Shown here: one piece after another, positions 4,222 through 50,230 of the stretch
Layout of the letters: each line of letters starts with the position of its first letter
Numbering within the stretch: the stretch's first letter is position 1
Source: Microlunatus phosphovorus NM-1
GTDB taxonomy: Bacteria > Actinomycetota > Actinomycetes > Propionibacteriales > Propionibacteriaceae
NCBI RefSeq assembly: GCF_000270245.1
Contig: NC_015635.1
Coordinates: 3,162,001 to 3,226,000, forward strand
DNA length: 64,000 bases
Reading direction: 5' to 3'
Translations under genes and position numbers: made by a program
The notes under the pieces: model-generated
What the model saw: only the letters and a program-made list of their open reading frames with translations
The model's database searches: none
What the model was told of the DNA's origin: nothing

Positions 4222-4282
4222 CACGAGAAGGAGGTTTGGCACCTGATCTCGGCCTTTTCGGGTGCCAAACCTCCTTCTCGTG
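4222..4282. repeat. Palindromic repeat element, copy 1 (terminator-like)
   Basis: Two perfect 22-bp arms (4222-4243 and 4261-4282) flank a 17-base loop. The arm begins CACGAGAAGGAGG and ends TTTGGCACC. It lies 7 bp beyond the stop of the GH3 gene and just upstream of the ligase-like gene, so it can act as a terminator for the former. The same end sequence recurs at 22636, and related ends occur at four other places in the window. Confidence 0.85.
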
Positions 4283-22635: not shown

Positions 22636-22692
22636 CGAGAAGGAGCTTTGGCACCCGTTTCGGCCGGAATCGGGTACCAAAACTCCTTCTCG
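22636..22692. repeat. Palindromic repeat element, copy 2 (bidirectional terminator-like)
   Basis: Arms of 21 bp (22636-22656 and 22672-22692), two mismatches, around 15 bases. The arm CGAGAAGGAGCTTTGGCACC is nearly the same as copy 1 at 4222. It lies between two convergent genes. Confidence 0.85.
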
Positions 22693-48988: not shown

Positions 48989-49035
48989 CTCTCGCCCGCG
49001 CTTCTCCCCACACATACCGCCCTTCCGTTCACCGA

Positions 49036-49089
49036 CTAGGAGCAGTTACAGGTCAAACCCGCCGATTCACCTGCAACTGCGCCTTTTCG
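49036..49089. repeat. Palindromic repeat element, copy 5 (left flank of nuclease gene)
   Basis: GCAGTTACAGGT pairs with ACCTGCAACTGC (one mismatch); the right end GCGCCTTTTCG equals that of copy 6. Copies 5 and 6 stand in the same orientation on either side of the DUF559-type gene, 54 bp before its start and 34 bp after its stop. Confidence 0.8.
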
Positions 49090-49143
49090 ATGGGCCTGTG
49101 GATAACTCCCCAGGAGGGGTTGACGGGTGCGACGCTCCCGTGC

Positions 49144-50139
49144 ATGAGCAGCTTCTCAGTCGAGCGCAGCAGTTGCCGGCCGGCCGCATCCATCGCCGAG
49201 TGGATCCGTCGCGGTGTCCCCCGGGGGACGCTGGTGGGGCCGGGGTTCGAACCGACCACCTACGGCTACCGCCGCGGCGGCGCGCTGCCCACAACCGCGC
49301 AACGCATCACCGATGTCGTCGCCGGGCTGCCCGAGGGTGCCTGGATCGCCGGTTGGGCGGCGGCGTACGTGCATGGTGTCGACAGGCTCGACGGTTTGGA
49401 CGATCACACCATGGCCAAGCTGCCGATCCCAGTGCTGCTGCCACCTGGCCAACGACGCCGGACGACGAGCGGCATCAGCTATCGACAGAGCACCCTGATC
49501 CCGCGCGGCGAGGTGTTCGAGGGCATCCCGGTGACCACGGCATTGCGCACCGCCCTTGATCTGGCCTTGCTGGCGCCCGACCTCACCGAGGCAGTCGTCG
49601 CGCTCGACGCGATCCTCGCGGCACGGATGCTCACCTATGACCGGCTCCAGCGAGCAGGGGCGAAGCTGCCTCCCCGGCGCGGAGCGCGGCAAGCCAGAGC
49701 TGCCATCGGGCTGGCACGGGCCGGGACTCGAAGCAGCTGGGAGTCCCGGCTGAGGATGTTCGCCGGCCAGCAGCTCGGACTGGTCGATCTCGAGGTGAAC
49801 CGGCCGGTCTTCGATCCCGAGGGGCGATTGCTGGGCATCCCGGATCTGCTCGATCTCGAGGCTGGGCTGGCGATGGAGTACGACGGTGCAACATGGCGAG
49901 CGGAGCGAACCGCCGGCCATCGCGATCGGGCCCAGCATCGGGAGGACAACGAGCGCGAGGAGCGGCTCGAACGCGCCGGGCTGGTGGTGGTCCGTGTCGA
50001 GAAGGATGATCTGACCCACTATCAGCGCAAGCTCACCGAGCGAATCAGTGCGGCACAGGAGGACGGGCTACGCCGGGACCGCACACGAGACCGCTGGACC
50101 ATCGACAAACCCGAAGGATGGCTCGGCCTACCCGCCTGA
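49144..50139 (+). CDS. AbiEi-like/DUF559 (Vsr-fold) nuclease-domain protein
   Basis: A 331-residue protein. The N-terminal part (residues 15-160) resembles the DNA-binding half of actinobacterial AbiEi-like proteins (AGWAAAYVHGVDRLDG, GIPVTTALRTALDLALL). Residues 215-315 match DUF559, related to Vsr endonuclease: SSWESRLRMF, GIPDLLDLEAGLAMEYDG (a PD-(D/E)xK-like core) and HREDNEREERLERAGLVVVRV. A predicted DNA endonuclease or regulator of unknown role; such genes are often multicopy in actinobacteria. It stands alone between repeat copies 5 and 6. Confidence 0.8.
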   Translation: MSSFSVERSSCRPAASIAEWIRRGVPRGTLVGPGFEPTTYGYRRGGALPTTAQRITDVVAGLPEGAWIAGWAAAYVHGVDRLDGLDDHTMAKLPIPVLLPPGQRRRTTSGISYRQSTLIPRGEVFEGIPVTTALRTALDLALLAPDLTEAVVALDAILAARMLTYDRLQRAGAKLPPRRGARQARAAIGLARAGTRSSWESRLRMFAGQQLGLVDLEVNRPVFDPEGRLLGIPDLLDLEAGLAMEYDGATWRAERTAGHRDRAQHREDNEREERLERAGLVVVRVEKDDLTHYQRKLTERISAAQEDGLRRDRTRDRWTIDKPEGWLGLPA

Positions 50140-50173
50140 CCCGGATTCGCCCTCGAAAAGGAGATGCCTGCGC

Positions 50174-50230
50174 CGAAAAGGAGCAGTTACACCCAAATCG
50201 TGCGAAATCACCTGTAACTGCGCCTTTTCG
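50174..50230. repeat. Palindromic repeat element, copy 6 (right flank of nuclease gene)
   Basis: Arms of 17 bp (CGAAAAGGAGCAGTTAC and GTAACTGCGCCTTTTCG, one mismatch) around 23 bases. A partial extra copy of the left end, CGAAAAGGAG, lies 20 bp upstream at 50154. Between convergent genes. Confidence 0.85.

Follow-up and report, generated by a model that had tools for sequence, protein, structure and literature searches.

AbiEi-Vsr-like nuclease genes framed by their own classes of dispersed palindromes: a probable type of mobile element

In the window, by which we mean the whole 64,000-nucleotide stretch of Microlunatus phosphovorus NM-1 DNA analysed here (C1:3162001-3226000 of its own genome), a nuclease gene is framed by two copies of a palindrome that is also dispersed elsewhere in the genome. 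We think it probable that this is a mobile element, made of a sequence-specific nuclease gene and its own pair of palindromes, which spread as solo copies too. Mobility is well supported for the palindrome-nuclease type; the window unit is a member of this type by its architecture, and by extension this copy would have moved as well. The proposal is built on direct observation of framing, of one palindrome class per nuclease lineage, of dispersal, of co-divergence, and of the presence or absence of a whole unit and of solo palindromes between Nocardioides albus and its relatives. Bacterial genomes commonly contain dispersed palindromes; to our knowledge, the RAYT transposase is the sole enzyme known to accompany them. 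Here, the same combination of framing, dispersal, co-divergence, and presence or absence between close species accompanies an enzyme non-homologous to RAYT. What spreads the RAYT-less palindromes thus becomes directly testable, and many actinobacterial DUF559/AbiEi-like genes annotated as 'hypothetical' would acquire a function as selfish elements.

Consistent with the preliminary description of this locus, two palindromes of 57 bp each lie around a lone gene (Table 1), and their presence is above chance, the exact inner pattern having one match in the window and none in 100 shuffles. The two frame palindromes are nearly symmetrical and share 77% identity over a 62-nt register. The upstream one (C1:3211033-3211089 in genome coordinates, by covariance model match) ends 54 bp before the start codon, which was set at ATG 49144 by alignment with a 62%-identical paralogue, and the downstream one begins 34 bp after the stop codon. 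The two neighbouring genes match models of a UPF0060/YnfA-like protein and of a thioredoxin/TPR-like protein; no DUF1814 toxin gene adjoins the nuclease gene, since both window neighbours match these other models.

Table 1. Features of the framed nuclease gene and other palindromes of the same family in the window
Feature	Position in window	Strand	Description
Solo class-B palindrome	4224..4280	.	Pattern and covariance model matches
Solo class-B palindrome	22636..22692	.	Pattern and covariance model matches
Upstream class-A palindrome	49033..49089	+	57 bp; copy 5 of the preliminary description; class-A covariance model, 62.2 bits; CGACTAGG replaces CGARAAGG in one arm; without outer half-unit
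DnaA-box-like motif TGTGGATAA	49097..49105	+	Reverse complement of TTATCCACA; 47 bp 5' of the start codon
Nuclease gene	49144..50139	+	331 aa; AbiEi-antitoxin-like DNA-binding half, then Vsr-like PD-(D/E)xK nuclease domain
AbiEi-like half	49144..49713	+	About residues 1-190, boundary approximate; PADLOC AbiEi models and Foldseek match to Rv2827c (1zel)
Vsr/DUF559-like nuclease domain	49735..50052	+	About residues 198-303; alignment and Foldseek
Outer half-unit CGAAAAGGAG	50154..50163	+	20 bp upstream of the downstream palindrome
Downstream class-A palindrome	50174..50230	+	57 bp; copy 6 of the preliminary description; pattern and covariance model matches

The description of the gene as Vsr/DUF559-like was also borne out, weakly at the level of sequence, where the Pfam families MTES_1575 (18.4 bits, cut-off 38.2) and DUF559 (13.3 bits, cut-off 20.6) both match below their cut-offs. 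MTES_1575 is a Vsr-type REase according to the available part of PMC3710099. Among 34 members of the family, Pfam detects DUF559 in 12, MTES_1575 in 11, AbiEi_4 in three and AbiEi_1 in three, and in the window protein PADLOC AbiEi models match residues 97-178 (best 4.3e-8). The AlphaFold model, computed from 34 sequences, has a mean pLDDT of 91.9. Foldseek found Rv2827c (1zel) as the closest solved structure, a modest match over most of the model (E 5.9e-4, TMq 0.36); for the nuclease part it returned weak matches to the catalytic domain of I-Bth0305I (3r3p; E 0.036, probability 1.00, TMt 0.69, 110 columns) and to ngo0050 (3hrl; E 0.17). Seven residues (E200, D234, E245, D247, H259, H265 and D268) are invariant in a 20-sequence alignment, and from these the window gene appears catalytically intact.

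Two known protein groups are approached by this combination of domains. The first is that of the AbiE type IV antitoxins (AbiEi, Rv2827c), which the window protein resembles in its N-terminal half by the AbiEi models and in its whole model by 1zel, but from which it differs by the nuclease domain and by its gene standing alone, with no toxin partner among the window neighbours. Rv2827c binds pairs of 23-bp inverted repeats lying 13 bp apart, as described in the accessible sections of PMC7319586; such a pair spans 59 bp, against 57 bp for the class-A and class-B elements. The second is that of the EDxHD homing endonucleases, represented by I-Bth0305I, with which it may share a Vsr-like catalytic fold (the weak 3r3p match). 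The active form of I-Bth0305I on its target, nearly 60 bp long, is a dimer (PMC3943268, from the portion available). Unlike these enzymes, the present gene is not phage- or intron-encoded, is framed by its own palindromes, has dispersed solo copies of them and carries an AbiEi-like DNA-binding module.

Within the 5,683,123-bp single-contig genome, the two-arm pattern of the palindrome family has 53 matches per strand, as compared with none for the pattern reversed. Two classes can be recognised among the 50 of these 53 matches that were listed: class A, with inner sequence GCAGTTACAGG (26/50), and class B, with inner sequence GGCACC (24/50). Both have the common ends CGANAAGG...CCTTNTCG, without the GTAG tag, and are almost always 57 bp long. 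Two covariance models, R1 and R2, gave 91 and 85 matches (both strands counted, the models overlapping), and those listed span model positions 1-57. As these searches scored the best 150 of 2334 and the best 150 of 3612 first-look candidates, and as truncated copies may escape them, the copy numbers are lower bounds: the merged list holds at least 29 class-A and at least 34 class-B places, four of the latter being weak (575958, 1357775, 2634701 and 4713454). An extra outer half-unit is present on at least one side in 26 of the 29 listed class-A copies. By crude ORF calls, 57 of the 63 listed copies lie outside called ORFs, among diverse neighbour genes, and the only same-class neighbours within 1.5 kb of each other are those of the two nuclease frames. 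The first 28 matches had suggested a general tie of the palindromes to nuclease genes, those of the DUF222-HNH type among them, which the diversity of these neighbours led us to reject; a DUF222-HNH-like family, by our own reading of the sequences, adjoins only two of the 63 copies.

The window protein has four relatives encoded in its own genome. The 62%-identical paralogue (C1:3460015-3461037, a reading frame with no internal stop) is framed by class-B elements at 3459945 and 3461092; L048, 28% identical to the window protein, is framed by a class-C pair and L047 by a class-D pair. Only the fourth, L046, has no apparent frame. Each nuclease lineage therefore has its own palindrome class in this genome, and classes C and D are themselves dispersed over at least 22 and at least 17 distinct places, respectively, among the 57 of 64 own-genome matches listed. 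In addition, a 3-kb region surrounding the third paralogue of this genome contains three class-C palindromes (725795, 726921 and 728634).

These counts bear on a homing-like explanation, in which the nuclease cuts a chromosomal target and homologous repair brings in the framed gene. The carrier would be protected by the frame, and recombination between the two copies would delete the gene and leave a solo palindrome as a scar. The resemblance of the nuclease domain to the homing endonuclease I-Bth0305I, the capacity of direct copies around a gene to recombine to one, and the existence of empty sites (see below) all agree with it. Nevertheless, a single class-A gene stands in this genome against at least 27 solo class-A copies, whose sites are mutually unrelated; since solo copies so far outnumber the genes of their class, deletion scars would require equally many past insertions. 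We regard this explanation as scarcely credible, the least probable of those considered here.

Framing is not confined to this genome. A two-protein profile gave 24 matches in 13 of 147 genomes of the family at 1e-20, and a profile from the 20-sequence alignment found 39 loci in named genomes, mostly Propionibacteriales, the others belonging to Cellulosimicrobium, Blastococcus, Geodermatophilus, Actinoplanes, an Acidimicrobiaceae MAG and a Chloroflexi MAG; one framed locus lies in a Chloroflexi MAG. When the two flanks of each gene were aligned with each other, 48 of 66 loci scored at least 22, compared with 44 of 4290 mismatched pairs (some of them pairing a locus with its own duplicate). Four loci (L084, L085, L087 and L089) occupy the same places as L076, L062, L065 and L069 and were left out, which gives 62 unique loci. 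With thresholds chosen after the data had been seen, 34 of these 62 scored at least 30 and 44 scored at least 22; among 610 control windows, taken in an identical layout from other parts of these loci, 0 and 35 did so, respectively. This leaves 28 of the 62 loci below 30, own paralogue L046 included, and 18 below 22. In clear cases, what matches between the flanks is a palindrome of about 50-75 bp; a few matches above 22, e.g. L078 and L086, are not convincingly palindromic. By crude ORF calls, 24 of the 62 loci have a neighbour family in common with another locus and 38 have none. Other such genes are thus framed, as the preliminary description had proposed to verify: own paralogues by their own classes, and homologues at the 34 loci just mentioned. 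The same orientation that it had pointed out for the two window copies does not extend to a general trait, the direct match being better in 25 of 44 framed pairs, the inverted one in 11, and both equal in eight.

Dispersal accompanies framing elsewhere too. A query of 20 palindromes found matches in all 11 genomes examined; summed over both strands and all classes, those listed number from 3 to 64 per genome. Palindromes of the L063 class are many in G074 and those of the L066 class in G098; G018 and G015 have three matches each, little besides the frame. G041 has many L063-class palindromes but, at 1e-20, only a nuclease of the L062 type, so that its copies are either orphan palindromes or served by a diverged partner. 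A plasmid or phage origin of the window gene was rejected, tblastn of the window protein at 1e-5 having given no match in 72,556 plasmid and 50,697 phage records.

Palindromes and proteins diverge together. Over 41 framed loci (pairs scoring at least 26, plus L257), the more identical two proteins are, the more similar are their palindromes (Mantel r 0.27, a value that none of 5000 permutations reached), and the mean palindrome score is 20.7 in the six pairs with at least 60% protein identity, compared with 8.6 in the 366 pairs below 30%. The signal is carried mostly by close pairs, many pairs at 50-60% identity being without it. The G363 homologue, 59% identical to the N. albus protein, is framed by a related but different palindrome.

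The arms of the class-A palindrome vary independently of each other. They pair in 79.1% of cells, compared with 78.4% after shuffling, and their covariation score was reached by 118 of 500 shuffles, so that a hairpin maintained by covariation finds no support in this class; two protein half-sites on duplex DNA fit this independence better than a hairpin kept by pairing. The preliminary description had seen in the arrangement a likeness to REP/RAYT or IS200/IS605 elements. Taken as membership, this likeness fails: Y1_Tnp (PF01797) has no match in the window's genome, the same search being positive in 5 of 14 control genomes, and a RAYT/IS200 element was consequently rejected. With neither a Y1/RAYT enzyme nor compensatory covariation in class A, the element looks like a duplex site read by a protein rather than a REP hairpin.

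The comparison of Nocardioides albus with its relatives gives the presence and absence of such units. N. albus JCM 3185 carries a framed nuclease gene (L105), the whole unit measuring about 1.28 kb. When 391 genomes of the order were searched with joined flanks from five units, the matches listed showed the flanks of the N. albus unit to be continuous at 89% identity in G363 and G398, with 3 bp in place of the unit. The flanks of units L110, L093 and L094 likewise lie side by side in more distant relatives, and no contiguous relative of unit L096 was found among the matches listed. At the site of the Soil797 unit (L094), we also observed that the close relatives G261 and G361 (L214 and L215) hold unrelated palindromes of about 60 bp.

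Solo palindromes follow the same pattern. Counted at up to three mismatches per arm, the N. albus class has eight copies in N. albus (two in the frame and six solo), none in G363, one in G398 (which has no nuclease homologue) and none in three further genomes. Five of the six solo sites are empty in at least one of the two relatives compared, G363 and G398, with a net gain of 68-103 nt in N. albus: L231 and L222 in both, L227 in G398, and L229 and L218 in G363. The flanks are clean at L231, nearly clean at L227 and differing at L222, L229 and L218, where inserts of 94-170 nt stand against 3-87 nt in the relatives. About 4.7 kb separates the L227 flanks in G363. Other sequence occupies L229 and L218 in G398, amounting to about 470 and 495 nt, respectively. 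At the sixth solo site (L234), which is an insertion hot spot in a coding sequence that we read as pabB, each of the two relatives (L245 and L248) has, at this very position, a different insert that is partly palindromic. Inspection by eye revealed no target-site duplication at the N. albus unit or in seven site comparisons. As the class is absent from G363, we infer gain in N. albus rather than loss in the relatives, an argument from class distribution and not from a tree; loss in G363 and G398 may have occurred instead. Empty sites, which the preliminary description had named as a check, therefore exist for the type, both for a whole unit and for solo palindromes, and together with the framed paralogues and the 34 framed loci they support the mobile unit that it had put forward as possible. 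In N. albus we also noticed a broken nuclease remnant followed by one own-class palindrome, and a distant intact homologue (27%) framed by another pair (L258, L259 and L260).

Alternatively, the palindromes might be MITE-like elements that depend for their movement on a transposase acting in trans, of the DDE or another type, with the nuclease gene a passenger caught between two copies. They are indeed short, have inverted arms and contain no gene, and the unit resembles a composite in having two copies around a gene. Under this explanation, though, one passenger family is framed in many genera by a palindrome that differs each time and tracks the protein; moreover, no target-site duplication was seen at the N. 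albus sites, and the window's genome has no Y1 transposase. We hold the passenger explanation to be very improbable.

According to a third explanation, the palindromes are host operators or bidirectional terminators and the nuclease is a resident regulator that binds, and does not move, the dispersed copies of its regulon or terminators. Autoregulation of AbiEi-type proteins through inverted repeats is described in the available text of PMC7319586, the upstream copy is at an operator-like position, most of the own-genome copies listed lie outside called ORFs (crude calls), and other hairpins occur in relatives at the L094 site. Against this, the classes switch from one nuclease lineage to the next and differ in their presence among close species, one copy is inside the coding sequence that reads as pabB, and the whole unit comes and goes as a block; a downstream operator would also be needless, yet matched flanks occur in 44 of the 62 loci. 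The operator or terminator explanation is in our opinion unlikely, though less so than the two others.

For the mobile element that we prefer, we suggest the following scheme. (i) The AbiEi-like halves of a protein dimer would each read one arm of the duplex palindrome, as homology and geometry suggest. (ii) The Vsr-like domains, judging from their fold, would cut at or beside the palindrome, or at a target. (iii) Host repair would then bring the palindrome, or the whole palindrome-gene-palindrome unit, into the break by copying or capture, a step conjectured from the pattern of presence and absence; we know of no PD-(D/E)xK nuclease that joins strands by itself. A protein specific for its own palindrome would in this manner drive its own class, and its upstream palindrome may at the same time serve as an operator.

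A further constituent may be the motif found between the upstream palindrome and the gene. A DnaA-box-like 9-mer with at most one mismatch to TGTGGATAA, the reverse complement of the classical DnaA-box TTATCCACA, is present in the 200-bp upstream window of 37 of the 62 unique loci (13 exact), compared with 1 of 62 downstream, 0 of 62 gene-body and 4 of 976 far-flank windows. In its TGTGGATRA form it typically lies 45-70 bp 5' of the start. We cautiously propose a link to replication, such that expression of the nuclease would be tied to it; the 9-mer could equally be the site of another regulator. In a wider and rather speculative form, to which we give somewhat less than even chances, AbiEi-Vsr-type dimers would constitute a general prokaryotic class that reads duplex palindromes of about 60 bp and copies them via breaks and host repair, perhaps in connection with replication initiation. 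If so, AbiEi-Vsr elements would account for many RAYT-less palindrome families in Actinobacteria and possibly beyond.

Of the known systems, REPtrons (REP sequences with their RAYT) are similar in having a lone gene between two palindromes, many solo copies and several pairs of gene and class per genome. In REPtrons, enzyme and palindrome co-diverge (PMC2817692 and PMC3733652, both from the parts available). A frame of own palindromes, genome-wide dispersal and co-divergence with the enzyme, which are REPtron properties, are found here. The two systems differ in the enzyme, an HUH Y1 transposase there and a Vsr-like PD-(D/E)xK domain with an AbiEi-like half here, and in the palindromes, which measure 20-40 bp there (PMC3733652, available part) and 50-75 bp here, where they have no GTAG tag, are not regularly inverted and, in class A, show no compensatory covariation. 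The same source, a 2013 survey, describes in its accessible sections a large palindrome group, the CGTC REPs including the rickettsial elements, apparently without a dedicated transposase. Like the present palindromes, the rickettsial palindromic elements and CGTC REPs are short, lie in some cases within coding sequence and have no known transposase (PMC3733652); unlike them, they have no nuclease partner reported in those sections. Our search of the open-licence PMC literature turned up no account of dispersed palindromes that frame a DUF559/Vsr-type gene or move together with one, and we provisionally consider this element type to be new.

Two minor observations concern the surroundings of nuclease genes and palindromes. 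Six nuclease loci (L100, L102, L107, L108, L110 and L112) adjoin one neighbour family, about 74-85% identical, which reads like a phosphate permease, their palindromes being different; this may be either a hot spot or an old shared position. In the window's own genome, 14 listed class-B copies (e.g. 2594753, 2832107 and 5042704) are embedded in a longer mosaic repeat that also contains a second palindrome, GACTTCGCACC...GGTGCGAAGTC. The mosaic copy at 2557319 has the same left flank and a different palindrome, which suggests that palindromes may be exchanged within this repeat.
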